DNA of 64,000 nt, from positions 1 through 64,000 of the forward strand of contig NZ_JARGET010000008.1 in the NCBI RefSeq assembly GCF_029210485.1. Direction: 5' to 3'. Source of the DNA: Hoeflea sp. YIM 152468 (GTDB lineage Bacteria; Pseudomonadota; Alphaproteobacteria; Rhizobiales; Rhizobiaceae). Each line of letters starts with the position of its first letter. Within the stretch, counting starts at the first letter, position 1. A program made the translations under genes and the position numbers. Under the pieces are notes generated by a model. That model saw nothing but the letters and a program-made list of their open reading frames with translations, was not told where the DNA came from and did not search any database. Below, piece after piece: positions 15,649 through 35,053 of the stretch.

Positions 15649-15657
15649 CTGATCTGA

Positions 15658-18885: not shown

Positions 18886-19836
18886 CTACCGGTATTCGCC
18901 GGCGTATTTCTCAACCATCTCAAGTCCATCAGCGGTGACAAAACCGGGGCCGGAGTTGATGTTGTTGCCCGGCAGAACGCCGTAACGATGGTAATTGGTC
19001 ATCACCACCACCGGCAGATAGGCCTGCAGGAACGGTTGCTGGTCGATGCCCCAGTTGATGGTGCCGGCCTTGATGCCCTCAACGATGTTGGGGCCCAGAT
19101 CGAAGGTGCCGAAATAGATGTCGCCGGCCATGCCGTTTTCATCGAGAGCCTGCAGCGTCGGGTCGGCGCTGGTCGGTCCGAGCGTCAGCACCGCATCGGT
19201 ATCCGGGTTGGCGTTGAGATAGGCCATCACCCGGTTCTTGATTTCGGCCGGGTCCTGTCCAGCGTCGATCATCTGGTTGCCCAGATCGATTCCCAGACCA
19301 TCGGCAAAGCCCTGGCACCGTTCGCTCGAGGCCGGCGAGGAGATGTAGTGGTTGACGCAAAGGAACGAGCTGACGCCATCGCCCTTGGCGCGCAGACCGG
19401 CGGCATGACCGGCGTCATATTCAGGCTGGCCGACATACATCAGGGCCCCCAGTTCACGGGCCTGGTCGGGCGTGCCGGAATTCATGATGATGACATCCAC
19501 GCCGGAATCGACAGCCGCCCTGATCGGACCGGACAGCACATCAAAATCGGCCAGGGTGGTGATGATGCCGTTCGGGCCAGAAGCTGCGGCCTGTTCGATG
19601 ATGCGGGCCATATCGGCCAGATCGCCGGTGGGCGGATTGCGGTACTCGACTTCGACATTCATCTGCGTGCCGGCGAGCGCAATGCCGTTCTTGACGGTGT
19701 TCCACCAGCTGTCGCTGTCTGGCGCATGGCTGACGAGGACGTAACGTTCGCCGTCTGCGGATGCGGTCGTGGCGCCCAGAACAGGCGCTGCGAATACAGC
19801 CGCCGCCAGGGCAAGTTTCGTGGTCAATGACATCAT
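18886..19836 (-). CDS. Sugar/polyol ABC transporter periplasmic binding protein
   Basis: A 316-residue type I periplasmic binding protein (RbsB/FrcB class) with a signal peptide (about residues 1-28, ending TASADG). The mature fold starts YVLVSHAPDSDSWWNTVKNGIALAG and has the hinge-region motifs DVIIMNSG and GDIYFGTFDLGPNIVEGIKAGTINWGIDQQPFLQAYLPVVVM. GGAGGAG precedes the tandem ATGs at 19836 and 19833, fixing the start. It is the first gene of the operon and divergent from lacI. MocB of rhizopine catabolism and IbpA of inositol uptake are in the same broad family. Confidence 0.93.
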   Translation of the reverse strand: MMSLTTKLALAAAVFAAPVLGATTASADGERYVLVSHAPDSDSWWNTVKNGIALAGTQMNVEVEYRNPPTGDLADMARIIEQAAASGPNGIITTLADFDVLSGPIRAAVDSGVDVIIMNSGTPDQARELGALMYVGQPEYDAGHAAGLRAKGDGVSSFLCVNHYISSPASSERCQGFADGLGIDLGNQMIDAGQDPAEIKNRVMAYLNANPDTDAVLTLGPTSADPTLQALDENGMAGDIYFGTFDLGPNIVEGIKAGTINWGIDQQPFLQAYLPVVVMTNYHRYGVLPGNNINSGPGFVTADGLEMVEKYAGEYR

Positions 19837-19924: not shown

Positions 19925-19944
19925 TTTTGCAACCGGTTGCAAAA
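19925..19944. promoter_or_regulatory. LacI-type operator, 20-bp perfect palindrome
   Basis: TTTTGCAACCGGTTGCAAAA is perfectly symmetric and has the central CG typical of LacI/GalR operators. It lies between the divergent binding protein gene (start 19836) and lacI (start 20029). Its inner 18 bp are identical to the palindrome at 33077-33094 in the inositol locus. Confidence 0.88.
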
Positions 19945-20028
19945 CTGAATCCCAAATTCTTGCTTTCAGGCAGATTTCTGGGCACTAATGTGACCGGTCC
20001 GAACCGGATCGACTGGAGACGCTGATAG

Positions 20029-21027
20029 ATGCCGCCAACGCTGAAGGATGTTGCCGAAAGGGCAGGGGTATCGCGTGCCGCGGTGTCACGCACGTTCACC
20101 GATGGGGCGTCGGTGTCTTTGAAAATGCGCAGGAAGGTGGAGAAGGCGGCCACTGAACTCGGTTACAGCCCCAACGCCTTGGCTTCGAGCCTGACCACCG
20201 GGCGCACCAAGCTGATCGGGCTGGTGTCGAACAACTTTCACAATCCGATCTTTCTCGAAGTCTTTGATCTGTTCACCCGTGGCCTGCAGGACCGCGGTCT
20301 GCGGCCGCTGCTGGTCAATCTGTCGGATGAAACCGATCCCGCCCATTCGATCCGCATGCTCAGGCAATACTCGGTCGATGGCGTCGTGGTCGCCTCGTCC
20401 ACCCTGCCGCCGGGCTTTGCCAAGGCCTTCCGCGACGCCGGTGTGCCTGTGGTCAACAGCTTCGGCCGCTACGCCAGCTCGCCGGAAGTCCATGTGGTCG
20501 GCATCGACAATGTCGAATGCGGACGCATGGCGGCGCGCGAACTTGTCCGCCGCGGCTATCACAATGTGGCGTTCCTGGGCGGACCGGAAACAGCAACCTC
20601 GACGCAGGATCGGCTGCGAGGCTTTCTCGAAGAGACCGGGTTAAGTCCGGATATCTCGGTGCGGTACACTTTCGCGGACGCCTATTCCTTCAATGCCGGG
20701 CGCGCCGAGATGCTCCGGCGGCTCGACGACACGCCAGCCGAGGCCTATTTCTGCGGAGATGATGTGCTCTCCATCGGTGCGCTGAGCGCAATCACCGGTT
20801 CGGGCCTGAGCGTGCCCGGCGACATCGGCCTGATCGGGCTCAACGATATGGAAATGGCCGGCTGGGAGAACATCAATCTCACCACCATCCGCCAGCCGAT
20901 CAGCCAGATCATCGATTCCTCGATCGAATTGATAGTCTCGATGCTGGCAAATCCCGACCGCTATCCCGAAGCGCGGCTGTTTCCCTGCCGGGTGATCGAA
21001 CGCGGGACGCTCAAACCGGTCGTTTGA
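20029..21027 (+). CDS. LacI family transcriptional regulator
   Basis: A 332-residue LacI/GalR repressor. The N-terminal HTH is TLKDVAERAGVSRAAVSRTF (about residues 4-23) followed by the hinge helix SPNALASSLTTGRT, then a periplasmic-binding-protein-like effector domain with IGLVSNNFHNPIF and the C-terminal VPGDIGLIGLNDMEMAGW. Divergent orientation and the perfect operator in the 192-bp gap make autoregulation and repression of the ABC transporter likely. Identical operator sequence at the inositol locus suggests it is the inositol-pathway repressor, in place of the RpiR-type IolR known from other alphaproteobacteria, which is not in this window. Confidence 0.93.
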   Translation: MPPTLKDVAERAGVSRAAVSRTFTDGASVSLKMRRKVEKAATELGYSPNALASSLTTGRTKLIGLVSNNFHNPIFLEVFDLFTRGLQDRGLRPLLVNLSDETDPAHSIRMLRQYSVDGVVVASSTLPPGFAKAFRDAGVPVVNSFGRYASSPEVHVVGIDNVECGRMAARELVRRGYHNVAFLGGPETATSTQDRLRGFLEETGLSPDISVRYTFADAYSFNAGRAEMLRRLDDTPAEAYFCGDDVLSIGALSAITGSGLSVPGDIGLIGLNDMEMAGWENINLTTIRQPISQIIDSSIELIVSMLANPDRYPEARLFPCRVIERGTLKPVV

Positions 21028-21077
21028 CACAGCGCCCGGCAAGGACCCCGCATTGACCCGGCCAGACCGGCTGAAGA

Positions 21078-21833
21078 TCACACCATCAGCGCCTTGTTCA
21101 CCAGATCCTGCTTGTTCGGGTATTGCGATGCATCGACGCCGAGGTGTGCGAGGGCGTCCCGGAGTTCGTCTTCGCTCAGCGCCTCGATTGCCTCGGTGGT
21201 CATTTTCATGAAATTGATCCGGCGCTTGACTGCCGGGTTGATGGCGCCGAACACGGCTTTGTTTTCAAACCCGAATTCGGCTGCGTATTTGCCCATGAAA
21301 TGGCTGAGAAACGTGTTCAGGCTGGGTCTGACCCTTGGGTCATCGGTCATGTGGCGTGCAGACGCATCCAGCGTCTTGAGCATGAGTTCGCTCCAGCGCT
21401 GAGCCCCCTTGCCGGTCATCAGCTCCATGGCGTTGTGGGTGTGGTGAAAGTGCAGCCTGAAGTCGCCGCCATGATAGGCGGGACCGCCGCCCATGACGTC
21501 AATCCACATGGCTGCCTGTGTTGCGACATGATGCTCGAGGGAGCCGACACGGGCGAACACCGACGTGAACCAGTCCTCGTCGGCAAACACCCGCTCATAG
21601 AAATTACCGACAATGCTGATGATTCGATCCGGTCCCAGCACCGAATAAAGCTGCCAGAACTGAATAGGCTTGGTTGCGTCATTGGAGGCGACAAGGCTCA
21701 CGATCTGCTCAATCCGGTGGGCATCGTCGGGAAGCTGCTTCTGCGCGATTGCCTCCAGGATGTAGGCTCGCTGAATGCTTTCGGACATGTATCCGTGTTG
21801 CGTCGCATAGGTCGGATAGCTGAACTTGCGCAT
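21078..21833 (-). CDS. Globin-like protein with helical extensions
   Basis: A 251-residue protein whose middle (about residues 64-185) looks like a truncated-hemoglobin-type globin: VLGPDRIISIVGNFYERVFADEDWF for the A-C helix region, HHVATQAAMWIDVMGG for the E-helix region, and a histidine-rich stretch at 128-133 (HFHHTH) followed by W147 as in the proximal-histidine helix. The N-terminal 60 residues are an extra helical segment. The last 36 residues, with LSEDELRDALAHLGVD and NKQDLVNKAL, resemble a SAP/HeH-type helix-extension-helix. Ligand or sensor function is unknown. It is convergent with lacI. Confidence 0.72.
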   Translation of the reverse strand: MRKFSYPTYATQHGYMSESIQRAYILEAIAQKQLPDDAHRIEQIVSLVASNDATKPIQFWQLYSVLGPDRIISIVGNFYERVFADEDWFTSVFARVGSLEHHVATQAAMWIDVMGGGPAYHGGDFRLHFHHTHNAMELMTGKGAQRWSELMLKTLDASARHMTDDPRVRPSLNTFLSHFMGKYAAEFGFENKAVFGAINPAVKRRINFMKMTTEAIEALSEDELRDALAHLGVDASQYPNKQDLVNKALMV

Positions 21834-22028
21834 GCGGTGCGTCCTTTGCCGGGCAGGGTGGCTGTTTTTTTTCGGTGCGGCATATCTAGGCGGTGGGCCC
21901 GTGTGTTACAAACCCCACCCGGAAATCCGATGGTCCGTGGTTTGGGCGCCACCAGACAATGCTTGAGCCTGCAGCCGCTTGAAGGGGTTGAAGGCAGCAG
22001 GGGCAACCAGGACGCAAGGACAGCACGC

Positions 22029-22982
22029 ATGGCAGGCCATCACCACCATCACCACGTCGATCCGGATGCGGGCGATGCGCGTGTGTTCTGGGCGGTCGTC
22101 ATCAATCTCGGACTGACGGTTGCCCAGATCATCGGTGGCATTGTGTCGGGCAGTCTGGCGATGATTGCCGACGCGGTTCACAACCTGTCCGATGCGCTGT
22201 CGCTGATCATCGCATTCTTTGCCCGCAAGATCGCCCGCCGCCCGGCTGATGCCCAGATGACCTTCGGCTATGGCCGCGCCGAGGTTGTTGCCGCGCTGAT
22301 CAATTACACCACGCTGATCGTGATCGGGCTCTATCTGATCTATGAAGCGGTGATGCGGTTCATCGAACCGTCGGACGTCGATGGCTGGCTGGTGGTGATC
22401 ATCGCCGGGGTCGCGCTGCTGGTGGATCTGGTCACTGCGCTGCTGACCTATTCGCTGTCCAGGACTTCCATGAACATCCGTGCCGCGTTCCTGCACAATG
22501 TCGCCGATGCGCTGGGGTCGGTGGCGGTGATTGCCGCGGGCACACTGATCATCCTGTTCGACTGGCGCCTCATCGACCCGTTGGTGACGCTGCTGATTGC
22601 CGGCTACATCCTGTGGATGGCGTTGACCGAAATCGGCGCGGTGATCCGGCTGCTGATGCTCGGCAGTCCGCCCGGCATCGAGGCGGACGAGGTTCTGTCC
22701 GCAATGGCCGCTGTCGATGGCGTTTCGGGCGTGCATCACCTGCACCTGTGGCAGATGCAGGAGCACAAGCCGGCGCTGGACGCCCATCTGGTCATCGACG
22801 CCGGCCGCTGGAGCGATGCCGATGCAATCAAACAGTCGGTCAAGGCCAGGCTCAAGGCGGGCTTTGGTGTCGTCCATTCGACACTGGAGACCGAATGCTC
22901 CGCCCATGCCTGTGTCGGGGCCGACGCAATCGGAGACGGCGAGGTCGATGATCGGCCTGAGCATCGGCATCACAGACCGTGA
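22029..22982 (+). CDS. Cation diffusion facilitator (zinc/divalent metal exporter)
   Basis: A 317-residue CDF transporter that exchanges cytoplasmic Zn2+ or a similar ion for protons. Six membrane spans; the H-x3-D metal sites are in SPAN II (AVHNLSDALS) and SPAN V (LHNVADALGS), the combination typical of zinc-selective members. A cytoplasmic C-terminal domain carries VHHLHLWQM. The N-terminus starts MAGHHHHHHVD, a natural six-histidine run, and the C-terminus is also His-rich (EHRHHRP), both likely metal-binding. AAGGAC precedes the ATG; the longer open frame upstream is a shadow of the globin gene. Confidence 0.94.
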   Translation: MAGHHHHHHVDPDAGDARVFWAVVINLGLTVAQIIGGIVSGSLAMIADAVHNLSDALSLIIAFFARKIARRPADAQMTFGYGRAEVVAALINYTTLIVIGLYLIYEAVMRFIEPSDVDGWLVVIIAGVALLVDLVTALLTYSLSRTSMNIRAAFLHNVADALGSVAVIAAGTLIILFDWRLIDPLVTLLIAGYILWMALTEIGAVIRLLMLGSPPGIEADEVLSAMAAVDGVSGVHHLHLWQMQEHKPALDAHLVIDAGRWSDADAIKQSVKARLKAGFGVVHSTLETECSAHACVGADAIGDGEVDDRPEHRHHRP

Positions 22983-23075
22983 CCGGGATGGCCGCTGCCT
23001 TCGCCGCTCGCCTCACAGTTGGAACTTTTTGCCTGCCCATACATTCAACAACTACTATATCTGAAGGGAGAGTGG

Positions 23076-23990
23076 ATGACATTGCACAAGACGAGCCCAT
23101 CGCGCGGACCGGGGTCTGCCGATGTGACAGGGTTTTATGACAAGGACACCGGGAGCATCCAGTACCTGGTTTCCGATCCCGATACCGGCAAGGGCGCACT
23201 GATAGATCCCGTCCTGGGGTTTGATCCAGCCCATGCCTCGACAGATTCGGAGACAATCGAGCAAATCCTCGATTTCGCCAAGTCGGCAAACATCACCATC
23301 GCCTGGATACTCGACACCCATCCCCATGCCGATCATCTGATGGCGTCCTGGTTTCTCAAGCAGCGGCTGGGCGCCCAGAACGGCATCGGCGAGAAAGTGA
23401 CCGAGATCGCCGAGCTGTGGCGCGAATTCTATCATACTCCCGATGCCTTCAACCTGCAGCGGGATTTCGATCGGCTGTTTGCCGATGGCGACACCTTCAA
23501 GATCGGTTCGCTTCCGGTGCGGGTGATGCTGACGCCGGGCCATACGCTGGGGTCGATCAGCTATATCGTCGGCTCCGATGCCGCTTTCGTCCACGATACC
23601 TTCATGCAGCCTGATGCGGGGACAGCGCGGGCCGATTTTCCGGGCGGGTCGGCGGGCGAACTGTATGACAGCCTGCAGTCACTGCTGTCGCTTAAGGGCG
23701 ATACGCGGCTGTTCGTCGGCCATGATTACGGCACCGACGAGCGGGAAGAGCCGGCCTGGGAATCGACCGTCGACGAGCAGCGCCGGACCAACACGCATCT
23801 TGCTGGCAATATATCCAGGGATGCCTATATAAAGCTGCGCGACGCGCGCGACCGGACCTTGGCGCTGCCGGATAGGATGCTGCATGTGCTGCAGATGAAT
23901 CTCAGGGCCGGACGGGCGCCGGAGGCGGAGAGCGACGGCAAGCACTACCTCAAAATCCCCCTCAACCGCTTTGAGAAGGAAACCTCATGA
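23076..23990 (+). CDS. Persulfide dioxygenase-like metallo-beta-lactamase fold protein
   Basis: A 304-residue MBL-fold protein of the ETHE1/Blh type. Metal-binding motifs: THPHADH (about residues 82-88), GHT near 160, HDTFMQPDAGTARADFPGGS near 175 and GHDYG near 215. The D-x-G-T-x-R-x-D-F-P-G-G segment is the persulfide dioxygenase signature, so the likely reaction is glutathione persulfide plus O2 to sulfite plus glutathione. Start ATG 23076 has AAGGGAG upstream. Its stop overlaps the rhodanese start by 4 bases, so the two work together in sulfide detoxification. Confidence 0.9.
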   Translation: MTLHKTSPSRGPGSADVTGFYDKDTGSIQYLVSDPDTGKGALIDPVLGFDPAHASTDSETIEQILDFAKSANITIAWILDTHPHADHLMASWFLKQRLGAQNGIGEKVTEIAELWREFYHTPDAFNLQRDFDRLFADGDTFKIGSLPVRVMLTPGHTLGSISYIVGSDAAFVHDTFMQPDAGTARADFPGGSAGELYDSLQSLLSLKGDTRLFVGHDYGTDEREEPAWESTVDEQRRTNTHLAGNISRDAYIKLRDARDRTLALPDRMLHVLQMNLRAGRAPEAESDGKHYLKIPLNRFEKETS

Positions 23991-24370
23991 AGACCGAAAA
24001 ACTGGCCAACGGCACGCTTGAAACCTGGACAGCGCAGGAAGTCGCTGACGCGTTTTCCCGCGACGAGATCGTGCTTATCGACGTGCGGACCCCGCAGGAA
24101 TACAGTTTCGAACGCATCGAGGGTGCGCTGCTGGCGCCGATGCAGGCGTTTCAGCCGGCCCATATGCCGGGACAAAGCGACAAGCGGATCGTGTTTCATT
24201 GCGGCTCGGGGGTCCGGTCGAAGAAAGTGGCCGAGACATACCTTGCCGCCGGCCATGATCGCGTCGCCCATCTGGAAGGCGGCTTTGGCGGCTGGAAGGA
24301 AGCCGGGTTCGACTACACCGGCACCGACATGGCGTCCGGCGCGCCCAAGCGGATGAAGAAATCGGGCTGA
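23987..24370 (+). CDS. Rhodanese-like sulfurtransferase
   Basis: A 127-residue single rhodanese domain with IDVRTPQEY, the active-site loop HCGSGVRS (catalytic Cys near residue 67) and the closing LEGGFGGWKEAGF. It transfers sulfane sulfur, here probably between glutathione persulfide, sulfite and thiosulfate alongside the MBL enzyme it is translationally coupled to. No signal peptide, so cytoplasmic. Confidence 0.94.
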   Translation: MKTEKLANGTLETWTAQEVADAFSRDEIVLIDVRTPQEYSFERIEGALLAPMQAFQPAHMPGQSDKRIVFHCGSGVRSKKVAETYLAAGHDRVAHLEGGFGGWKEAGFDYTGTDMASGAPKRMKKSG

Positions 24371-24471
24371 CAGCCTGGATTTGCAAAGCAAAAGGCTCGC
24401 GGCCACAGGCATGCGGGCCTTTTCGATGACGACGATTTGCAGGGGAGGTTCCGGCCTGAAGCCCGGATGGC

Positions 24472-25263
24472 TCACACAGCGATCAACCATGCCCCGGCAG
24501 CGATCATTGCAAGGCCGGTGAGCTTGGTCAGGCCTTCGCTGCCCGGAACGGTCTTCTCGATCAGCACATACAGTGCAATGGCGATGATCCACGCCGTGTT
24601 CATCACGCCGGCGACAAACAGCACGCCCATCAGTGCCCAGCAACAGCCGATACAGAACAGCCCGTGACGCCAGCCCATGGCGAGCGCGCCGGAATTTCCC
24701 TGTCGCCATTCGGTCATCAGAAAGCTCAGCGGTGTGCGGCACAGCTTGAGGCAGGCCTGCTTCAGCGGCGTGAACTGATAGACACCGGCGACGATGAGAA
24801 TTCCACCGGCCAACGGGCCTGATCCGGCCTTCATCATCATCGGCGACATCAGCGCCAGATGCGTCAATCCGGCCTGAAAGACTGCCGCTGCGACGCTGAA
24901 AGCTGCCCAGGCCAGAACATAGCCGCCGGAAAACATCCATATCGGCATCCAGCCGGCACCGCGGCTGCGGTCCAGTGCCTGCATCCGTGCATAGGCCATG
25001 ATCATCGGCATGGCCGTCGGCAGCATCATCGCCGCCATCATCACCGCCCACATCAGGCACAGCCCCAGCAGCGGCACCGGCATGAACATCTGCCCTGGCA
25101 TCATCATTGCCGCCATGCCGGGAACCAACGACATGTCGCCGATCATCAGAGCCAGATAGACCCAGCTTGCAAGCGCCAGCGTCACCGGGCCGCCAAGCCC
25201 CAGCGCCAGCCGCGCCGGGGAAAGGTTTGCGCCGCCGCGGCCGATGGAAATTCCGCGCGCCAT
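24472..25263 (-). CDS. DUF2182 integral membrane protein
   Basis: A 263-residue membrane protein of the DUF2182 (predicted metal-binding) family. It has about six spans, is rich in methionine (GMAAMMMPGQMFMP, WAVMMAAMMLPTAMPMIM, ALMSPMMMKAG) and contains FTPLKQACLKLCRTP followed by GLFCIGCCWALM, the Cys-containing motif diagnostic of the family. Methionine and cysteine enrichment suggests handling of a soft metal such as copper, which is inference. The ATG at 25263 overlaps the DUF1326 stop by one base. Confidence 0.88.
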   Translation of the reverse strand: MARGISIGRGGANLSPARLALGLGGPVTLALASWVYLALMIGDMSLVPGMAAMMMPGQMFMPVPLLGLCLMWAVMMAAMMLPTAMPMIMAYARMQALDRSRGAGWMPIWMFSGGYVLAWAAFSVAAAVFQAGLTHLALMSPMMMKAGSGPLAGGILIVAGVYQFTPLKQACLKLCRTPLSFLMTEWRQGNSGALAMGWRHGLFCIGCCWALMGVLFVAGVMNTAWIIAIALYVLIEKTVPGSEGLTKLTGLAMIAAGAWLIAV

Positions 25264-25865
25264 TACTGCTCGCTCTGGTAGGCAAAGGGCGAGAAGACGC
25301 CGGTCTTGTCTGTCAGGGTCCAGGCCATGCCGTGGTCGGAGAACTGGTTCCGGCTTGTCCTGGCCACAGTCGCCGCGAAGCCCGGTGCGATGGCCAGCGG
25401 ATGGCCGGTGATGGTGATCGGGCCGTCGCCCTGACCGGTGATGGCCTCGATCTCGACATCGGCGATAGTTGGGATGGTAAGTCCGTATTTGCCATTGCTG
25501 GCTGTAAAGTTGATCGGCACCGACCGGACACCGACGATCTGGCCGATATGGGTGGCAAGCCGCGCCGGGTGGCCGCCGCCCTGGCCGCCGAAGATCTTCA
25601 TCAGGCTGGCATTCTGCGCCTCGCTGGCCCGCTCGTCGACATAGACGGCAACCGTCCATTGGGTTGTCGCCATGTGGCCGGGCGAATGCACTGCAAGCGC
25701 CACGTTGAGGCCCGACAGCGAAACCCCCTCGTCATCGCCGTCCTCGATATGCCAGCCAACCAGCGCGGTGCACTCGCCTTCTGTCGGCGGGCTGAGGAAC
25801 AGGCAGGGGCAGGCACTCTCGCAATTGCAGCTTTCGAAATAGGTTCCCTTGAGTGACCAGGTCAT
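25263..25865 (-). CDS. DUF1326 domain-containing protein
   Basis: A 200-residue soluble protein of family DUF1326, beginning WSLKGTYFESCNCESACPCLFLSPPTEGEC with the conserved clustered cysteines (CNCESACPC) that define the family, likely a metal site. It ends in FAYQSEQ. DUF1326 and DUF2182 genes are commonly adjacent; here they are translationally coupled, so the products probably form one system. GGGAG precedes the ATG at 25865. The pair is divergent from a winged-helix TPR regulator. Confidence 0.9.
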   Translation of the reverse strand: MTWSLKGTYFESCNCESACPCLFLSPPTEGECTALVGWHIEDGDDEGVSLSGLNVALAVHSPGHMATTQWTVAVYVDERASEAQNASLMKIFGGQGGGHPARLATHIGQIVGVRSVPINFTASNGKYGLTIPTIADVEIEAITGQGDGPITITGHPLAIAPGFAATVARTSRNQFSDHGMAWTLTDKTGVFSPFAYQSEQ

Positions 25866-25990
25866 TGCATTCTCCCTCTGGTTGGACTGTTGGCAGCAAT
25901 CTAGGGGCAGACTGCCGTCGTTGCTTGACGAGGGGATTGAGATTACAGTGGGTTTTGTGTGGTTTTCTGTCAGGAAAAGATTGATCTTCA

Positions 25991-27604
25991 ATGATTTACC
26001 GGTTTGGCGCATTTGCCATCGATCCTGCGATCTATGAGCTCAGCCAACATGGTGCACCGGTGTCCATCGAGCCGCAGGTGTTCAATGTCCTGTGGCATCT
26101 GCTGCGCAATCGCGACCGCATCATTTCCCGCGACGAGCTCATCGACGCCGTGTGGGATGGCCGCGCGGTGTCCGACACCACGCTCTCAAGCCGGATCTTT
26201 GCCGCCCGCCGCGCCGTCGGCGACACCGGCGAGGCGCAGGAGGTGATCCGCACCATCTCGCGGCGCGGTTTCCGGTTCGTCGCCGAGGTGAGCTGCGAAG
26301 CCGCAGAGGCTGCGGCCGAGGCTGCGGGGCCGGGCGAACCACCCGCAACCGCGCCCGATGCCGTCCTGCCGTCTTCGCTTCAACCGGGCGTTGACGTCAT
26401 GGTGCCGGCCTTGCCCCCGGCCAGCCGTCATATCGCGGTGATGCCGGTGCTGGCGGTGCTGCCGTTCAAGATGGCAAGTGCCGGACTGGACGAGTATTTC
26501 TGCGACGGTCTGACCGAAGACATCATTTCCAACCTGACCCATTTCCGCGAACTCAGGGTGATTGCCAGCGGCTCGTCGTTTCACTTCAAGACCCGGGATG
26601 TGCCACTGGCAGACATTGCCGCCAGGCTGGGCGCCGATTACATCGTCGATGGCAGTGTCCGGCGCGAGGGCAACCGGCTCAGGGTTGCGGTGCAGCTCAG
26701 CGAAGCCGCTACCGGGGTGTCGCTGTGGGCTGACCGGTACGACCGGCCGATGGGGGATATCTTTGCCGTCCAGGATGCGGTGACACAGATGATCGCCGCG
26801 TCACTCGGGGTCAAGATGCAGGACACGGCGCTGACACGGGCGTTGCGCAAGAGCCCGGCCGAACTCGACGCCTATGACTGTCTGCTGCATGCGCGACGCT
26901 ACACCGCAACGCTCAATGAGGAGATGCATGCCGAGGCGCGGGATCTGTTGGAAAAGGCCATCGGGCTCGATCCGACCTATGCCGAAGCGCACGCGCTGCT
27001 GGCCAATGTCTATCTCGCCGAGCACCGGTTTGACGCCAATCCACGGCCCGATCCGATCGGACGGGCGCTTGAGATGGCGCTCAAGGCGGTCCAACTCGAT
27101 CCGCAAAGCGCCTATGCCCATTGCTGGCTGGCGATCGTGCATTACTTTCGCAAGGATATCGGCAAGTTCGAGGCCGAGGCCGCCCGGGCGCTGGATCTCA
27201 ACCCCACCGACCCGGAAATCCTGGCCGAGGTCGGTCATTACCTCTCGTTCATGGGCGCGTTCGAGCGCGGCATCGAGCTCTCGCGCCGGGCGCAGGAGCT
27301 CAATCCGCTGCATCCGGGCTGGTATCATTTCAGCTATGCCCGGCTGCATTACCGTGAGCGCTGCTATGAAGAAACCCTGGTCGATGTGCAACGCATCTCC
27401 ATGCCGGATTTCTTCTGGACGCATCTCATGAAGGCCGCAGCCTTGGGCCAGCTTGGCCGCAAGGAGGCGGCGGACTCGCTGGCGATGATGAGCAGGATCA
27501 AACCCGGCGTTACTCCGGCTGCGGCCATGACCAAATGGAACGTGACGGACGAGGACCACGCCCACCTGATCGAAGGCCTGCGCAAGGCCGGGTATGAGGG
27601 GTGA
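25991..27604 (+). CDS. Winged-helix (CadC/OmpR-type) transcriptional regulator with TPR repeats
   Basis: A 537-residue soluble regulator. Residues 1-95 form an OmpR-type winged helix (RFGAFAIDPAIYEL, EPQVFNVLWHLLRNRDRIISRDELIDAVWDGRAVSD, RTISRRGFRFVAEV). Residues about 150-270 form the TolB-like/adenylate-cyclase-associated domain (VLPFKMASAGLDEYFCDGLTEDII, ADYIVDGSVRREG). The remainder, to the C-terminus, is a TPR-like helical array. No membrane helix or receiver domain is present. Its promoter faces the DUF1326/DUF2182 pair across 125 bp, so those genes are the most likely target. Signal unknown. Confidence 0.9.
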   Translation: MIYRFGAFAIDPAIYELSQHGAPVSIEPQVFNVLWHLLRNRDRIISRDELIDAVWDGRAVSDTTLSSRIFAARRAVGDTGEAQEVIRTISRRGFRFVAEVSCEAAEAAAEAAGPGEPPATAPDAVLPSSLQPGVDVMVPALPPASRHIAVMPVLAVLPFKMASAGLDEYFCDGLTEDIISNLTHFRELRVIASGSSFHFKTRDVPLADIAARLGADYIVDGSVRREGNRLRVAVQLSEAATGVSLWADRYDRPMGDIFAVQDAVTQMIAASLGVKMQDTALTRALRKSPAELDAYDCLLHARRYTATLNEEMHAEARDLLEKAIGLDPTYAEAHALLANVYLAEHRFDANPRPDPIGRALEMALKAVQLDPQSAYAHCWLAIVHYFRKDIGKFEAEAARALDLNPTDPEILAEVGHYLSFMGAFERGIELSRRAQELNPLHPGWYHFSYARLHYRERCYEETLVDVQRISMPDFFWTHLMKAAALGQLGRKEAADSLAMMSRIKPGVTPAAAMTKWNVTDEDHAHLIEGLRKAGYEG

Positions 27605-27808
27605 GGGGGCGGCAAGGTGGTCCCGGACGGGTGAGCGCCCCGTGACGCCAATCGCGTTGCGCGGCCGCCGGCGCTGAAATGACATGGCTATGCCGATAAT
27701 CCTGCTTTGACGTTCCAGGCTAAATAGGGCCGGAAACATCGTAACGTTGAAATAACGCGTACTCTCTGTTATTGTAATACCTCTGCAAAAATAGATCAGG
27801 ATTGCGTC

Positions 27809-28813
27809 ATGTTGCGCTTTTCTTTTATTTACATTGTATTGCTTTCGCCCGCACTGGCTGAAGTGTGTGACCGTACGGCTTATCCATTGAACAAATTCGA
27901 GGCGGGAGATCCGGTACAGGAAGCCCGTATCGACTTTACATACGAATCCGGCGTTGCCATTCATGCTGACGGTGCGCACGAAACTGTCTACTGCATACGA
28001 AACGATGGATCGATCCCGGTTTGGGTGAAGTGGCATGGTCCCAAGCCGGGTCTGTTGCTCGAGAGTCTTGTCCCGGGCGGCGGAAGACGGGCGAAAAGGC
28101 ACAACAAGCGCTACGAGACCACACAGCCCGATGATCGGATGATCGAGTATGGGCTGTCGAGACGTTACGGAAAGCAAACAACAGGCAAAACCTTGACATT
28201 TGAAGCTCTGCTGGATGCTCCGAAACCCACCTTGGTCCAGGCTACTCCGCTTGATCTGGTTGGCGTGTCAATGGCGGAAGCGCTGGCCGACGCCGATACC
28301 CTGGACCGCTACCTCGAGAGCTATCGCAGTTCGCCGCAAGGCGGCAACGAGCTGGCAATCTGGTCCTATGCCAGCAACTGGATTCCGGCCGATGGCGGAG
28401 TGCTGGCGCAGCTGGCAGCGGGCGAAGAGATCGAAGACTATGATGGCTCTTACGTTCCGGTATCCTATGGTCTTCGATCGACCATCGATATCGACAAGAG
28501 AGTGGCAACCTCATCGGTGCAGTTCTGGTTTGGCCATTTCAATGTAAACGATGAGGCGTTTGCCCTCGCTGTGGGCAGCGAAATTCGCGGCCGGCTCTCC
28601 CTCGTGACAACCGCCGGACCGTTTCCGGGGTTGGCAGATTTTAAAGGCGAGTCCACCTATGGTCTGGCTGAGGCCGAGGCGTTTCTGGGTCGCGACGTTG
28701 GCAATGCTGACGTCGGCGGCAGCAACACCGTTCAATTGGTGCCGTGGACCATTGGACTGGCCTTTGACGGTGTGCCCCTGTCGGCCTTGCAGGCAGAATT
28801 GTTTGAGAACTGA
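27809..28813 (+). CDS. Hypothetical secreted protein
   Basis: A 334-residue protein not recognised. It has a short signal peptide (about residues 1-18, ending PALAE) and no further membrane helix, so it is probably periplasmic. Two cysteines near residues 20 and 59 could form a disulfide. The residues about 250-285 (SVQFWFGHFNVNDEAFALAVGSEI) are predicted beta-rich. It ends 2 bases before the next gene, which encodes a membrane protein, so the two probably act together. Base composition is lower in G+C than neighbours at the 5' end (27700-27850), which may indicate acquisition. Confidence 0.75.
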   Translation: MLRFSFIYIVLLSPALAEVCDRTAYPLNKFEAGDPVQEARIDFTYESGVAIHADGAHETVYCIRNDGSIPVWVKWHGPKPGLLLESLVPGGGRRAKRHNKRYETTQPDDRMIEYGLSRRYGKQTTGKTLTFEALLDAPKPTLVQATPLDLVGVSMAEALADADTLDRYLESYRSSPQGGNELAIWSYASNWIPADGGVLAQLAAGEEIEDYDGSYVPVSYGLRSTIDIDKRVATSSVQFWFGHFNVNDEAFALAVGSEIRGRLSLVTTAGPFPGLADFKGESTYGLAEAEAFLGRDVGNADVGGSNTVQLVPWTIGLAFDGVPLSALQAELFEN

Positions 28814-28815
28814 TC

Positions 28816-29559
28816 ATGCGGATCGTCTTTGACCGCGGCTGCCTTCGCCTGCAGGTCGATCCGGGAGACGGGCTGCACTCGGAAGCGCTTGACACCTGGC
28901 GAGAGGCTAGCGATCTCAGCAGGACCTGCCTGGACGTCCTGCCGGCCAATCAGGCTGACGATTGCTGCAGGCAATTGGCGGAAACGGCAACGCACGCGTT
29001 GAGCGCCGGCCGCGACGATGCGGTGATTGCCAGTTTCCGGAAAGTGGAGACTGGCTTGCGCGCTGCGGACGAGGCGATACGCAGTGCTATCATAAACGAC
29101 ATTGTGGCCATCTTTTTGATCTGTTTCGGTTCCGGATTTACCGCGGGTATCCTGTGGATCTGGATGGAGCCGTACAGACTGTGGAATTTTCTGCCAAACG
29201 AACTAACCAATGCTGTCAACTACATCTTGCTGTTCATCGGCTGGACAGGCTTTACCCTGATCGGCTTCAGCATCGGCTGGTACTTCTTGAAGACGGGCAT
29301 GATCCGAGTGCTGGACCGGGAGGCGGCCGTGAAACAGGCGATTTCGCTGCGGCAGCGCATGGCGCATGTCGGTTATAACGCTTCCTTGTGCCTGGTTGTG
29401 GTGATTGTCATGTTCTTCTTTGGCGGCTTCGAAAATGTCGATGAAGCGCTGTCGCGGCAACTGACCTCGGCGCCCTCGGCTGTTCTGTTGGGATTGGTGA
29501 TCGGCGTGGCGGAGCCAGCGGTCTTTGAGCGGATACGCGGTTTCCTCAAGCTCTCCTGA
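28816..29559 (+). CDS. Hypothetical membrane protein with four predicted helices
   Basis: A 247-residue protein not recognised. The first 90 residues are a cysteine-containing helical domain (TCLDVLPANQADDCCRQLAE). Hydrophobic segments follow at about residues 93-115, 133-158, 188-210 and 215-235. No catalytic motif is visible. It begins 2 bases after the stop of the secreted hypothetical protein and overlaps no other gene; the two form an orphan operon with no recognisable function. Confidence 0.75.
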   Translation: MRIVFDRGCLRLQVDPGDGLHSEALDTWREASDLSRTCLDVLPANQADDCCRQLAETATHALSAGRDDAVIASFRKVETGLRAADEAIRSAIINDIVAIFLICFGSGFTAGILWIWMEPYRLWNFLPNELTNAVNYILLFIGWTGFTLIGFSIGWYFLKTGMIRVLDREAAVKQAISLRQRMAHVGYNASLCLVVVIVMFFFGGFENVDEALSRQLTSAPSAVLLGLVIGVAEPAVFERIRGFLKLS

Positions 29560-29676
29560 CCCGGTTCGAATGCCCGGCCTGCCGTTGCGGCGCAGCATGG
29601 GCAACTGCGGCGATCCTGTGTTTTCCCTCCGCAGTCGACCCGATTGCAGCCAAGCCTGTCTGGCGCACGCCACGCC

Positions 29677-30834
29677 CTACCTGAACATCGGCGGGCGCGC
29701 GTCCACCCATGCGCCGTCGGCCTTGCCCGATTGGGCCACGGCGAACACGGCTGCCATCGAGCGCAGGCCGTCCTCGGCGCGGGGATAGAGGTTGGCGGCG
29801 GGGTCCATCGGACTGCCTTGTTTCTCAGCGCGGATGGCCTCGGCCAGATCCTGGTAGAGATTGGCGAACGCCAGCGGCATGCCTTCGGCGTGACCGATGG
29901 TGACGCGGGAGGTGCGGTCAGCTTCCGGCGAGAGGTTTGCCTCGCCGCGCTCGATGGTCTGCAGCCGTTCGCCCAGCGGCATCCAGGAGAGCTGGTTGGG
30001 CTGTTCCTGGGCCCATCTGAGTCCGCCTTTCTCGCCAAACACCTGCAAGGTCAGCCCGTGCTGGCGGCCGATGGCGATCGACGAGGTCCAGAGCCGCCCC
30101 ACCGTGCCGCCATCCATGCGGAAATTGACCATGGCGTCGTCTTCGAGCTCGCGGCTGGCGATACACGACACCGTGTCGGCGGAGAGCCGGGTCACCTCCT
30201 GGCCGGTGACGAAGCTCGCCATGTGCAGCGCGTGAATGCCGCAATCGGCAAATTGCGCTGAAACCCCGGCCTGGGCCGGGTCATAGCGCCAGCGCACCCG
30301 CGGATTGTCGGCATCGGCGGCGTCTGCATGGTGGCCATGGGCGAATTCGGCCTTGACCAGCCGGATCTTGCCCAGATCGCCGCGCGCCACCATCGCCTTC
30401 ATGTGGCGCACCAGCGAATAGCCGGAATAGCCGTAATTGACCGCACAGATCTTTCCGGTCGCCCGGGCGGTGCGGACAATGTCCTCGCCCTGTTCGACGG
30501 TCATCGTCATCGGCTTTTCACACAGCACGTGAAAACCTGCCTCGAGATAGGCTTTGGTGATCTCGTAATGGGTGGCGTTCGGGGTCGCCACGGTAACCAG
30601 ATCGACGCGGTCGGGGCGGTTTTTCTCGCCATCCAGCATCTTGCGCCAGTCGCCATAGGCGCGGTCAGGGGCGAGCCCCAGCCGCTGGCCATACTCGCGG
30701 CCCGCATCGGGCCGGTGGTCGAGCGCGCCGGCTGAAAATTCGAACGCGCCGTCAAGTCCGGCGCCAAGCCGGTGGGCCGGTCCGATCTGGCTGCCTTCCC
30801 CGCCGCCGATCATGCCCCATGTGAGCTTTGTCAT
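29677..30834 (-). CDS. Gfo/Idh/MocA family NAD(P)-dependent oxidoreductase
   Basis: A 385-residue dehydrogenase. Rossmann start WGMIGGGEGSQIGPAHRLG, the family CEKPM motif near residue 103 and a C-terminal dehydrogenase fold (FADCGIHALHMASFVTG). GGAGG precedes the ATG. Together with the gene at 31925-33052 and the IolE-like gene it forms a leftward set at the inositol locus, though a palindromic repeat sits in the 203-bp gap upstream. It probably oxidises a cyclitol, for example scyllo-inositol, or reduces a keto-inositol; the exact substrate is unknown. Confidence 0.9.
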   Translation of the reverse strand: MTKLTWGMIGGGEGSQIGPAHRLGAGLDGAFEFSAGALDHRPDAGREYGQRLGLAPDRAYGDWRKMLDGEKNRPDRVDLVTVATPNATHYEITKAYLEAGFHVLCEKPMTMTVEQGEDIVRTARATGKICAVNYGYSGYSLVRHMKAMVARGDLGKIRLVKAEFAHGHHADAADADNPRVRWRYDPAQAGVSAQFADCGIHALHMASFVTGQEVTRLSADTVSCIASRELEDDAMVNFRMDGGTVGRLWTSSIAIGRQHGLTLQVFGEKGGLRWAQEQPNQLSWMPLGERLQTIERGEANLSPEADRTSRVTIGHAEGMPLAFANLYQDLAEAIRAEKQGSPMDPAANLYPRAEDGLRSMAAVFAVAQSGKADGAWVDARPPMFR

Positions 30835-30901
30835 GCTGAAATGCCTCCAAATCGATGTGAAACAGCGTCGTGCCGAAAATTCCAGTTCCGGATTTCAGTG
30901 T

Positions 30902-31015
30902 CCGTCATACCGGACCTGATCCGGTATCCAGTGACCCGGCGTCTGCCGGGTCAAGAGACTCTTTCAACCCAGGGACCTGGGCTGGCTGGATGCCGGATCA
31001 AGTCCGGCATGACGG
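30902..31015. repeat. Rhizobial palindromic repeat element
   Basis: Outer inverted arms 30902-30931 (starts CCGTCATACCGGACC) and 30986-31015 (ends AGTCCGGCATGACGG) enclose a hairpin GACCCGGC/GCCGGGTC at 30933-30952. The same core (TGCCGGATCAAGTCCGGCATGACGG-type) is at 53514-53650. It lies between two genes of the inositol locus. Confidence 0.88.
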
Positions 31016-31037
31016 CCTCTGGTGACTGACCCTCCGC

Positions 31038-31928
31038 TCAGAATCCGATGGATTGGAGATAGGCGCGGTTGGCTCTGGCGTCGCCCACCGGATCGGGGTC
31101 GAGCAGCGGATCGCAATCCTGTTCGACCGTGCACCAGCCCTCGAACCCGGCCTCGAGCAGGATCTGCCGCACGGCCGGGAAATCGACGTCGCCGTCGCCG
31201 AGATTGCAGAAAATGCCCTGGCCGCAGGCATCGTAGAAACCGGTGCGGCTGGCGATTGCAGCCGCTTTCACATCCGGGTTGATGTCCTTGAAATGCATGT
31301 AGGAAATGCGGTCGATGTGACGTCTCATGAAAGCCACCGGGTCAAAACCGGCATAGGAGTGATGGCCGGTGTCGAAGCAGATCTTGAGAATTTTCTCATC
31401 CACCTCGTCGAGCAGCCGCTCCAGTTCGGGCTCGAAATCGATGAAACCTGCGGCATGGGCGTGAATGCCGACCGTGAGGCCGTAATCTTCCGCGCCCATT
31501 TTCGCCACCGTGGCGATGCGGTCGCGGAAGGCGCTCCATTCAGCCTTGTCCATCTGCTCGGCCTCATCGGCGCGGCCGGCGGTGGGCGCGCGGCGCGGCG
31601 AGATCGAATCGATCAGCACCAGATGCTGTGCCCCATGGGCTGTGAGCGCCTTGCAGGTTCTGACGGCGCCGTCCATCACGTCGTTCCACTGACTGGCGTC
31701 GTGAAAGGCGCGGAACACCACGCCGCCGATCAGTTCCAGACCGTTGTCGCTCAGCGCCGCGCCGAGGACCGCCGGGTCTTCCGGCATGAAGCCGACCGGC
31801 CCGAGTTCAATGCCGGTGTAACCGGCCGCGGCGCATTGTGTCAGCACCGTCTGCCAGGCCGGATTGCGCGGATCGTGTGGAAATTCGACACCCCACGAGC
31901 AGGGGGCGTTGCCGATCTGGATGGTCAT
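31038..31928 (-). CDS. TIM-barrel sugar phosphate isomerase/epimerase, IolE/MocC-like
   Basis: A 296-residue xylose-isomerase-like TIM barrel beginning MTIQIGNAPCSWGVEF. Metal and active-site motifs: GIELGPVGFMPED, VGIHAHAAGFIDFEPELERLLDEV, CFDTGHHSYAG and YMHFKDINPDV, then GWCTVEQDCD. In the inositol pathway the IolE dehydratase converts 2-keto-myo-inositol to the trihydroxycyclohexanedione that is the substrate of IolD. Placement with IolD and two dehydrogenases supports that role, but the start motif is closer to the MocC/uncharacterised group than to classical IolE, so I leave the symbol blank. The ATG overlaps the upstream dehydrogenase stop by 4 bases. Confidence 0.85.
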   Translation of the reverse strand: MTIQIGNAPCSWGVEFPHDPRNPAWQTVLTQCAAAGYTGIELGPVGFMPEDPAVLGAALSDNGLELIGGVVFRAFHDASQWNDVMDGAVRTCKALTAHGAQHLVLIDSISPRRAPTAGRADEAEQMDKAEWSAFRDRIATVAKMGAEDYGLTVGIHAHAAGFIDFEPELERLLDEVDEKILKICFDTGHHSYAGFDPVAFMRRHIDRISYMHFKDINPDVKAAAIASRTGFYDACGQGIFCNLGDGDVDFPAVRQILLEAGFEGWCTVEQDCDPLLDPDPVGDARANRAYLQSIGF

Positions 31929-33052
31929 GGGTGTTTCCCCTCTGCTGACCCGGTCCCGCCGGGTGTCTGCCATGATTTGGTTTGCGACGAGGCCTGCGCC
32001 GCCGCCACGATTTCATTGACCGCCAAGCCGTCGCGGAATGTCGGCCACACCGGCTTGCCGGTTTCGATGGCGCGGAGGAAATCCCGCGCCTCGATTGTGA
32101 TCTGGTCCTGATAGCCGGTGCCGTGGCCGGGGCCCTGACAGAACGGCAGATAGTCGGGATGGGCCGGGCCGGTGAGGATCTTGGTAAAGCCACGCGTGGC
32201 TTCCGGCTCGTCCATCCGGTAGAGCCACAGCGCGTTCTGATCTTCCTGGTCAAAGCGGATCGCGCCCCTGGTGCCGGTGATCTCGTAGGCGTAGCCCATC
32301 TTGCGGCCGGTGGCGATGCGGCTGAAATGCATCTGCCCCATGGCGCCATTTTCGAACCGGCACATCATCTGGGCCTGATCGTCATTGCTGACTGCGCCGC
32401 CGGGGCGGGTGGCATGAACGGTCTCGACCTCGGCAATCAGCGACCGGATCGGGCCGACCAGCGCCAGCGCCGCATTGATCATGTGCGGGGCCAGATCGCC
32501 CATGGTGCCGTTGGCCTCGCCCGATGTGCGCCAGTTGGCAGGCGTTTGCGGGTCGGCGAGAAAATCCTCCGTGTGCTCGCCGCGAAACCAGGTGATCTCG
32601 CCGATCGCGCCCTCGGCAATCAGTTTTCTCGCGAACTGGCTGGCAGGCGTGCGGATGTAGTTGAAGCCGACCATGTTGGCCACCCCGCTTGTCTCGGCTG
32701 CGGCGACCATGGCGCGGCTGTCGTCGAGCGATGCGCCCATCGGCTTTTCGCACAGCACCGGCTTGCCCAGTGCAAAGGCGGCCTCGGCAATGGCGCGGTG
32801 GGTGGATTGCGGCGAGGCGATGATGATGGCCTCGACCTTCGGGTCGGCCACCAGCTGCTGCCAGTCCGTTGCGGCGCGCAAGAACCCGTAGGCGGCGCGG
32901 TAGCGTTCGGCGGAGTCAGCCGATCCGGCCGAGACCATTTCCAGCCGCGGCCTCAACGCGGTGTCGAAGACGGCGCCGACGCTGGCCATCGCCACCGCAT
33001 GGGCCTTGCCCATATAGCCGCCACCCACAATGCCAACACCTATTTCGGTCAT
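31925..33052 (-). CDS. Gfo/Idh/MocA family oxidoreductase (inositol locus)
   Basis: A 375-residue NAD(P)-dependent dehydrogenase. Rossmann motif GVGIVGGGYMGKAHAVAMASVG, CEKPMGAS near residue 100, and the C-terminal catalytic MGDLAPHMINAALALVG. First gene of the leftward transcript, its start is 25 bp from the LacI-type operator at 33077-33094. An upstream in-frame ATG at 33064 (MDPIMTE) is possible. It is divergent from iolD. The probable substrate is inositol or an inositol stereoisomer/derivative. A very long open frame continuing to 35008 opposite iolD is a shadow. Confidence 0.92.
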   Translation of the reverse strand: MTEIGVGIVGGGYMGKAHAVAMASVGAVFDTALRPRLEMVSAGSADSAERYRAAYGFLRAATDWQQLVADPKVEAIIIASPQSTHRAIAEAAFALGKPVLCEKPMGASLDDSRAMVAAAETSGVANMVGFNYIRTPASQFARKLIAEGAIGEITWFRGEHTEDFLADPQTPANWRTSGEANGTMGDLAPHMINAALALVGPIRSLIAEVETVHATRPGGAVSNDDQAQMMCRFENGAMGQMHFSRIATGRKMGYAYEITGTRGAIRFDQEDQNALWLYRMDEPEATRGFTKILTGPAHPDYLPFCQGPGHGTGYQDQITIEARDFLRAIETGKPVWPTFRDGLAVNEIVAAAQASSQTKSWQTPGGTGSAEGKHP

Positions 33053-33076
33053 AATCGGATCCATTTTGAAATTCAG

Positions 33077-33094
33077 TTTGCAACCGGTTGCAAA
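33077..33094. promoter_or_regulatory. LacI-type operator in the inositol divergon
   Basis: TTTGCAACCGGTTGCAAA, an 18-bp perfect palindrome identical to the core of the operator at 19925-19944. It lies in the 135-bp gap between the leftward dehydrogenase (start 33052) and rightward iolD (start 33188), where it could repress both directions. Confidence 0.88.
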
Positions 33095-33187
33095 TTTTGT
33101 ATCTTCGGAATTGAAGTTTCGCAAGCGGCATTTTCCGCGCCGGTCAAAACCGGGCGCTGATGCCGGCAAAGAGGGAGGTCTGGGCGC

Positions 33188-35053
33188 ATGACTGAGGACA
33201 CGATCCGTCTGACGACGGCGCAAGCCATTATCCGCTATCTCGCCAACCAGTTCATCGAGATCGATGGCAAGGAGATGCGGCTGTGCGGCGGCGGCTTCGG
33301 CATATTCGGCCACGGCAATGTCACCTGTCTGGGTGAGGCGCTGTATGATGCGCGGGCCGAACTGCCGCTCTACCGTGGCCAGAACGAGCAAAGCATGGGC
33401 TTTGCCGCGGCTGCCTACGCCAAGCAATGGCTCCGGCAGCGGTTCATGTTCTGCACCGCATCGGCCGGGCCGGGGACCGCCAATCTGCTGACCTCGGCAG
33501 CTCTTGCCCACGCCAACCGGTTGCCGATGCTGATGCTGTGCGGTGACATCTTCATCACCCGTCTGCCTGATCCGGTGCTGCAGCAGCTTGAGCATTACGG
33601 CGATCCGACGCTCGGTGTGAACGACGCCTTCAAACCGGTGAGCCGGTTCTGGGACCGGATCACCCATCCGGCGCAGATCATCCAGTCGTTGCCGGCAGCC
33701 CTCGCCACCCTGTTCGATCCGGCCGATTGCGGCCCGGCGTTTCTGGGCCTGCCGCAGGATGTGCAGGGCTGGGCCTATGACTACCCGGAGGCGCTGTTTG
33801 CCAGAAAGGTGCACCGGATTCGCCGTCAGACGCCGGACAGGGCCGAAATCGCCGATGCGGCGGCCCTTCTCAGGGACGCGAGGCGGCCGGTGATCATTGC
33901 CGGCGGCGGCGTGCAGTATTCGCGCGCCACGACGGAGCTTGCGGCCTTTGCCGAGGCGCATCAGATCCCGGTGATCGAAACCATTGCCGGGCGGGCCAAT
34001 CTGCTCAACGATCATCCGCTCAATATCGGCCCGGTCGGCGTTACCGGCTCGGACAGCGCCAATGCGATTGCCGAAAAGGCCGACGTGATCCTGGCGGTCG
34101 GAACCCGGATGCAGGATTTCACCACCGGGTCGTGGACCGCGTTCGACAAATCCGCCCGCATCGTCGCGCTCAATGCTGCCCGCCATGATGCCGCCAAGCA
34201 TCTGTCGATGCCGATTGTCGGTGACGCCAAGCTCGGGCTTGAGGCGCTGGGTGCAGCGCTTGACGGCTACTCCGCCCCGGCCGAGTGGACCACGTTCGCG
34301 CAAGTCCAGCGCAAGATCTGGGACGCCTATGTTGCGGGCAACGTCGCCCATGGCAATCGCCCCAATTCCTATGCCCAGGCCATCGGCGTGGTCAACGCGC
34401 TGTGCGACAGCCGCGACCGGGTGGTCACCGCCGCCGGTGGATTGCCGGCGGAAGTCACCGCCAACTGGCGTACCCTGTCGCTCGGCACGGTCGATGTCGA
34501 GTTCGGATTCTCCTGCATGGGCTACGAGATCGCCGGCGGCTGGGGCGCGCGCATCGCCCAATCCGAGCGCGAGCCGGACAAGGATACCATCGTCTTTGTC
34601 GGCGACGGCGCCTATCTGCTGATGAATTCCGACATCTATTCCTCGGTTCTGAGCAACAAGAAGCTGATCATCCTTGTGCTCGACAATGGTGGCTTTGCCG
34701 TCATCAACAAGCTGCAGACCAACACCGGCAATGAAAGTTTCAACAATCTGCTGGCCGATTGCCCGACGATTGACGAGCCCTTCGCCGTGGATTTCGAAGC
34801 CCATGCCGCCTCGATGGGGGCGATTTCTGAGACCGTTTCCAATCCGGCAGAACTGGGCGAAGCCTTCAAGCGCGCCAAGGCGGGAACAAAGACCCACGTG
34901 ATCGTGATGAAGGTCGACGCCTATGAGGGCTGGACCACACAAGGGCACACCTGGTGGGAGGTCGGCACGCCGCATGTCACCGACAACCCCAAGGTCAGGG
35001 CTGCGCACGCGGACCAGGAAGCCACACGCGTCAAGCAGCGCAAGGGGGTTTGA
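33188..35053 (+). CDS. iolD: 3D-(3,5/4)-trihydroxycyclohexane-1,2-dione acylhydrolase IolD
   Basis: ThDP-dependent ring-opening enzyme of inositol catabolism, producing 5-deoxy-glucuronate. 621 residues, the usual IolD length. Start: VRLTTAQAIIRYLANQ-like opening (here IRLTTAQAIIRYLANQF), CGGGFGIFGHGNVTCLGEAL, GQNEQSMGFAAAAYAK with the catalytic Glu, and a C-terminal ThDP motif VGDGAYLLMN...NNGG-like (LVLDNGGFAVIN). An AGAGGGAGG sequence precedes the ATG. It heads a rightward operon: iolD, oxygenase, iolC, iolB, aldolase, iolG. Confidence 0.97.
   Translation: MTEDTIRLTTAQAIIRYLANQFIEIDGKEMRLCGGGFGIFGHGNVTCLGEALYDARAELPLYRGQNEQSMGFAAAAYAKQWLRQRFMFCTASAGPGTANLLTSAALAHANRLPMLMLCGDIFITRLPDPVLQQLEHYGDPTLGVNDAFKPVSRFWDRITHPAQIIQSLPAALATLFDPADCGPAFLGLPQDVQGWAYDYPEALFARKVHRIRRQTPDRAEIADAAALLRDARRPVIIAGGGVQYSRATTELAAFAEAHQIPVIETIAGRANLLNDHPLNIGPVGVTGSDSANAIAEKADVILAVGTRMQDFTTGSWTAFDKSARIVALNAARHDAAKHLSMPIVGDAKLGLEALGAALDGYSAPAEWTTFAQVQRKIWDAYVAGNVAHGNRPNSYAQAIGVVNALCDSRDRVVTAAGGLPAEVTANWRTLSLGTVDVEFGFSCMGYEIAGGWGARIAQSEREPDKDTIVFVGDGAYLLMNSDIYSSVLSNKKLIILVLDNGGFAVINKLQTNTGNESFNNLLADCPTIDEPFAVDFEAHAASMGAISETVSNPAELGEAFKRAKAGTKTHVIVMKVDAYEGWTTQGHTWWEVGTPHVTDNPKVRAAHADQEATRVKQRKGV

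Follow-up and report, generated by a model that had tools for sequence, protein, structure and literature searches.

The first 64,000 nucleotides of contig NZ_JARGET010000008.1 of Hoeflea sp. YIM 152468 (the whole stretch of DNA analyzed here, hereafter the window) very probably hold a local inositol regulon under a single LacI-family repressor, a LacI-type IolR. This reading, which we draw from the sequence and its comparison with other genomes, centers on a perfect 18-bp palindrome, TTTGCAACCGGTTGCAAA, that occurs twice in the window, at places 13 kb apart: once between the genes for the substrate-binding protein (SBP) of a sugar/cyclitol ATP-binding cassette (ABC) transporter and a LacI-family regulator, and once between two divergent units of inositol catabolism (iol) genes.

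Two Identical Palindromes between Divergent Genes

The copy at 19926-19943 (putative operator 1) is flanked by T and A and thereby extends to a perfect 20-bp palindrome at 19925-19944; its center lies 98 bp from the start of the SBP gene (19836, minus strand) and 94 bp from that of lacI (20029, plus strand). The identical copy at 33077-33094 (putative operator 2) is centered 33 bp from the start of a Gfo/Idh/MocA dehydrogenase gene (33052, minus strand) and 102 bp from that of iolD (33188, plus strand). A preliminary description of this DNA had placed both palindromes between divergent transcription units and held that such a pair is not expected by chance, and both statements are borne out. 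With up to three mismatches allowed, the two known copies are the only matches in the window, and the whole genome (4,274,706 bases in 40 contigs) contains TTTGCAACCGGTTGCAAA at these two places only, while a control search with the pattern reversed returned one match per strand. At the same tolerance, 100 dinucleotide-preserving shuffles of the window yielded a mean of 0.04 matches, and none of the 100 contained two. Sites at many unrelated genes, which the preliminary description had named as the outcome that would count against its proposal, were not found in this genome search.

A LacI-Family Regulator with a Singular Recognition Helix

The gene beside operator 1 (20029..21027, plus strand) encodes a regulator of 332 aa that we propose as the LacI-type IolR. 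Its N-terminal LacI helix-turn-helix (HTH) scores 58.3 bits against a cut-off of 27, and full-length matches to 17 LacI-family models (all below their cut-offs) and to the PurR and RbsR structures, with a periplasmic-binding-protein-like effector domain, place it in the LacI/GalR family. The genome gave eight LacI-family HTH matches, and when recognition helices were compared by tblastn and direct translation, VSRAAVSR was seen only in the window regulator; the relatives examined carry VSRSAVSR or nearly so, a kept pattern of VSR[A/S]AVSR. Because this helix is unique in the genome and both sites are conserved jointly with the LacI gene, the protein encoded beside operator 1 is the likely regulator of operator 2 as well, which agrees, on the strength of comparative genomics, with what the preliminary description had supposed. 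As we use the term, a LacI-type IolR is marked by an operator that is kept, in several genomes, upstream of genes for inositol uptake and catabolism, and such an operator is found.

Conservation of Sites and Gene Order

We scanned named genomes with the LacI protein and analyzed the best 80 of at least 565 confirmed candidates (identity of at least 77%), which come from the marine genus Hoeflea, from other Rhizobiaceae and many roseobacters, and from Kiloniella and metagenomic Granulosicoccus. A site was defined as a match with up to three mismatches within 300 bp upstream, and sites and genes were paired by their letters within each locus. Counting assessable genes in the 80 loci, a site lies upstream of the SBP gene in 64 of 64 cases, of iolD in 66 of 66, of the first Gfo/Idh gene in 67 of 68, and of the LacI gene in 69 of 80; conversely, of the 134 sites that deviate by no more than one mismatch, 131 lie at one of these four genes. 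The SBP, LacI, both Gfo/Idh genes, and iolD occur together in the fetched stretch at 61 of the 80 loci, and in 59 of the 72 relatives with both lacI and the second Gfo/Idh gene, these two are convergent at a distance of less than 500 bp. The usual order runs from ATPase, permease, and SBP through a site to lacI, and then, convergent with lacI, through the Gfo/Idh-IolE-Gfo/Idh unit and a second site to iolD-C-B-J-G. The annotated megaplasmid of Ruegeria sp. TM1040 has the same gene order with two perfect sites, the palindrome core is the sole long invariant block in eight aligned lacI-SBP intergenic regions, and the IolD of LacI-type loci, where a match is present, is 66-92% identical to that of the window. 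With sites and gene order conserved, the case for shared control is much stronger than a mere pair of equal palindromes could make it.

Co-occurrence points the same way. In a sample of 297 family genomes, the LacI (E <= 1e-90) is found in 30 and the palindrome (up to one mismatch) in 35; both are present in 27 and neither in 259 (Fisher p 5.5e-28, a value inflated by shared ancestry).

The Transporter and Its Substrate

The leftward unit at operator 1 comprises, all on the minus strand, the SBP (18886..19836), a permease of the ribose/monosaccharide type (17690..18811), and an ATP-binding protein (16900..17688), the latter two assigned from model matches, and is followed by a terminator-like hairpin at 16871-16845. 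The sole NCBIfam match of the SBP is the rhizopine SBP model NF052284, at 275.1 bits against a cut-off of 420, a score that does not place it among the rhizopine (MocB-type) proteins. Its top fold match is the structure 4ru1, which we take to be an inositol complex, and PGA1_c07300-07320 of Phaeobacter is presumably a myo-inositol transporter; neither point is used as evidence here.

The preliminary description had predicted inositol or a cyclitol as the cargo of this transporter, and comparative genomics supports inositol or a close relative of it: the transporter has its operator in common with the iol genes, shares one locus with them in 61 of the 80 relatives, and has a like counterpart in classical iol clusters. 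In two relatives, an SBP 74.8-75.0% identical to that of the window lies inside such a cluster (L202 5775, L203 16047), where the transporter is located ~140 bp behind GGAA-N6-TTCC, the motif of the RpiR-type IolR; the presence of this transporter type behind an RpiR-type motif provides independent support for inositol as its substrate. We also observed the palindrome near other substrate-binding proteins, or near a TIM-barrel gene followed by a transporter (L057 13029, L114 5554, L059 9123), and these are possible alternative transporters of the same regulon.

A Diverged Set of iol Genes

The leftward unit at operator 2 (minus strand) begins with the Gfo/Idh/MocA dehydrogenase (31982..33052), which reaches 128.8 bits with the IolG model (cut-off 355) and 275.3 with that for levoglucosan dehydrogenase (cut-off 650). 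It continues with an IolE-like inosose dehydratase of the TIM-barrel fold (31038..31973; TIGR04379, 180.5 bits, cut-off 290) and a second Gfo/Idh/MocA dehydrogenase (29677..30834) that reaches no cut-off. The rightward unit (plus strand) consists of iolD (33188..35053; TIGR04377, 796.6 bits, cut-off 715), a PhyH-like 2-oxoglutarate/Fe(II) dioxygenase (35055..35894, starting at an internal ATG), iolC (35891..36871, likewise from an internal ATG; TIGR04382, 325.2 bits, cut-off 300), an iolB-like gene (36901..37743; TIGR04378, 141.6 bits, cut-off 205), a class II aldolase called iolJ by position (37740..38582; below cut-off with the NCBIfam class II aldolase models and above it with Pfam F_bP_aldolase), and iolG, the inositol 2-dehydrogenase (38587..39576, from an internal ATG; TIGR04380, 435.5 bits, cut-off 355). 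IolD, IolC, and IolG thus pass their NCBIfam equivalog cut-offs; for IolE and IolB the best-scoring models are the IolE and IolB ones, at scores below cut-off, and since the SBP also falls short, the window holds a diverged iol set. The methylmalonate/malonate-semialdehyde dehydrogenase (iolA/mmsA) has two matches over cut-off elsewhere in the genome, on contigs C22 and C16.

The dioxygenase, an accessory member between iolD and iolC, has an HxD motif and a match in 17 of the 80 relatives, adjoining iolD or iolC in those listed. As pure conjecture, it might demethylate O-methyl-inositols.

A Model for Repression and Induction

From sequence, conservation, co-occurrence, and gene order, we infer how binding, repression, effector, and promoter position might fit together. 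When inducer is lacking, a LacI dimer would bind the same palindrome in both divergent intergenic regions and block four units, namely lacI, SBP-permease-ATPase, Gfo/Idh-iolE-Gfo/Idh, and iolD-PhyH-iolC-iolB-iolJ-iolG. The inducer, presumably an inositol or an early product of its catabolism such as inosose, would bind the sugar-binding domain of LacI and free the operators, upon which uptake and breakdown would be induced together.

At iolD, repression would proceed by occlusion. In 79 distinct aligned iolD promoters, a TA...T hexamer (99%, 99%, and 96% at the three positions) stands at a fixed distance after the operator, 16 bp past the left half-site TTGCAA. The window has TTGCAA at 33078-33083, the left half of operator 2, and, 16 bp after it on the plus strand, the possible -10 element TATCTT (33100..33105). 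Because TTGCAA precedes the conserved hexamer by 16 bp, operator 2 probably overlaps the -35 region of iolD. The short distance between the center of operator 2 and the start codon of the first Gfo/Idh gene is also compatible with occlusion. At operator 1, no comparable -10 element was seen in the aligned sites.

Alternative Explanations

Several observations weigh against one LacI-type repressor serving inositol use in this way. The conservation figures cover the best 80 of the candidates and so describe the nearer relatives; in 11 of these 80, the LacI gene has no site with up to three mismatches, and these 11 loci, some of which are short contigs, gave no match to the transporter genes of the window. 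Among the family genomes, 3 of the 30 that carry the LacI have no site at up to one mismatch, and 8 of the 297 have such a site and no LacI match at E <= 1e-90 (e.g., G221:C20:7563-7580). A simple sigma-70 scan of both intergenic regions found no promoter, tblastn with one RpiR query detected no RpiR relative in the two loci where the transporter lies behind the RpiR-type motif, and the scores of IolE, IolB, and the SBP leave room for a preferred cyclitol other than myo-inositol. The eight genomes with a site alone could mean that the main binder of the palindrome is another regulator, for instance another paralog of LacI or a LacI-family protein that acts globally, and LacI-family operators do resemble one another. 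The fetched loci around their sites (9.5 to 18 kb each) contain no LacI relative at a tblastn threshold of 1e-6, however, and these sites may be chance occurrences or serve another role; moreover, the seven other LacI-family HTHs found in the genome all differ from the window regulator in their recognition helix, and two sites genome-wide fit a global regulator poorly. We therefore consider another binder very improbable. Only slightly less improbable is that the protein activates, or both activates and represses: the negative sigma-70 scan leaves no promoter against which to place the operator, but the overlap of the iolD site with the inferred -35 region, with the conserved TA...T at a fixed distance, is typical of repression, and local LacI-family proteins are mostly repressors. 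That the repeated palindrome is a product of chance or a mobile repeat lacking any regulatory role is contradicted by the shuffles, by its rarity in the genome, and by the relatives, which keep it at the same genes; nothing was found in favor of this explanation, and we give it practically no weight.

The most serious competitor accepts the regulon as real and changes its natural substrate and inducer to another cyclitol that feeds the iol pathway, such as scyllo-inositol, an O-methyl-inositol, or a rhizopine-like inosamine. The rhizopine model as the sole, sub-cut-off NCBIfam match of the SBP, the two extra Gfo/Idh dehydrogenases that reach no cut-off, and the dioxygenase match in the locus of 17 of the 80 relatives would all suit such a substrate, and the six genomes described below that hold both cluster types suggest different roles for the two, although four of the six were picked for having the LacI. 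Against this stand the equivalog cut-offs passed by IolD, IolC, and IolG and the like transporter found in classical iol clusters. In addition, fitness data assign a role in the use of myo-inositol to PGA1_c07220, the IolJ of Phaeobacter inhibens (PMC9007349), a name that the window aldolase bears by position. On balance, another cyclitol is unlikely, though it merits being kept in mind, and inositol remains the substrate that we favor for the LacI-controlled regulon.

RpiR-Type Control and Classical iol Clusters

The preliminary description had further expected that this organism uses a LacI-family repressor for inositol in place of the RpiR-type IolR, and the genome agrees. Its single RpiR (PF01418) match, C5:140163, lies beside TRAP-transporter (dctM) and ispG matches and shows no linkage to iol genes; as a weaker indication, GGAA-N6-TTCC, counted as exact copies, is absent from the 64-kb window, where base composition predicts 0.77.

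For comparison, we fetched 20 kb around each of 19 classical iolD loci, which were hand-picked and not randomly sampled. The palindrome (up to three mismatches) is found in none of the 19, an RpiR relative lies within the fetched 20 kb in 13 (tblastn with one RpiR query, by which some may be missed), and exact GGAA-N6-TTCC occurs in 11, with 16 copies in total vs. 4.5 expected from base composition. The LacI-type locus L206 also carries one copy of this motif. The IolD proteins of the classical loci are 46-51% identical to that of the window. Six of the 19 genomes (G139, G164, G175, G225, G269, and G279) also hold a LacI-type cluster, four of them having been chosen because they have the LacI, and the matches listed for the LacI-type clusters of G279 and G225 include no IolD.

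Taken further, these patterns could mean that one bacterial family is home to two competing and unrelated systems of inositol control. One would be a transferable LacI/TTTGCAACCGGTTGCAAA cluster whose iol enzymes have diverged, the other a classical GGAA-N6-TTCC cluster; the transporter would be as if rewired between repressors in two genomes, and the palindrome would perhaps double as a -35 element and so be unable to drift. We offer this reading tentatively and would not yet favor it; its odds are lowered by the negative search for an RpiR gene in the two rewiring loci.

Relation to Known Inositol Regulators

LacI-type control of inositol genes is already known as a kind, at the level of prediction: a LacI-type IolR, RHE_CH02362, has been predicted for the inositol genes of Rhizobium etli in RegPrecise (cited in PMC8877191), and Table 1 of Ravcheev et al. 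2014 (PMC4052901) contains seven LacI orthologous groups for inositol. Like the window regulator, these are LacI-family local regulators assigned to inositol transport and utilization, and a relative of the window LacI in Rhizobium sp. Root274 (79% identity) has two sites. The literature on LacI-type inositol regulators, as far as it was searched and with RegPrecise entries outside the search, does not give the operator described here.

The RpiR-type IolR of Sinorhizobium meliloti (cited in PMC8877191) and that of Caulobacter crescentus, with the motif GGAA-N6-TTCC (Boutte et al. 2008, PMC2597717), resemble the window system in coordinating an ABC inositol transporter and iol genes via a common palindrome, but they belong to an unrelated protein family and use another motif, of which the window has no exact match. 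The Caulobacter ibpA-iatA-iatP genes likewise encode ABC-type inositol uptake and differ in being part of the RpiR IolR system (PMC2597717). IolQ/DegA of Bacillus subtilis (PMC5504672) is, like the protein proposed here, a LacI-family repressor in inositol metabolism; it differs in that it represses iolX, and its two sites share AGAAARCGCTTKCK.

Neighboring Genes

Adjoining the inositol transporter, positions 11013-16635 encode a PhnD/PhnC/PhnE-type transporter along with two enzymes, a HAD phosphatase and a PfkB kinase. We rejected this block as part of the transporter unit: PhnD was matched in five of the 80 loci, all of them Hoeflea, and the block is set apart by the single hairpin at 16871-16845, against an expectation of 0.5 from shuffles, and by a promoter-like match, against one of 0.2. 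A block of 8.5 kb (21078-29559) separates lacI from the second Gfo/Idh gene and encodes globin-like and PpoB2-domain proteins and one Trans_reg_C and TPR protein. Parts of it occur in other Hoeflea, where the gap measures 4.3 to 6.0 kb in the loci L077, L080, and L081; it was rejected as a member of the regulon in view of the close spacing of lacI and the second Gfo/Idh gene in most relatives. Beyond the iol cluster, a LuxI/LuxR-type pair is located at 40799-42260.

Concluding Remarks

The Ruegeria sp. TM1040 annotation names these genes in generic terms ('sugar ABC transporter', 'LacI family', 'Gfo/Idh/MocA', and 'TIM barrel'). A regulator, an operator, and a substrate can now be proposed for transporter and iol genes that carry such names, and an operator that occurs twice in 4.3 Mb has the specificity needed to predict regulon members in other genomes. 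The most interesting by-product is the coexistence with classical clusters, together with the common transporter type, and this coexistence offers a clear case for testing non-orthologous regulator replacement.

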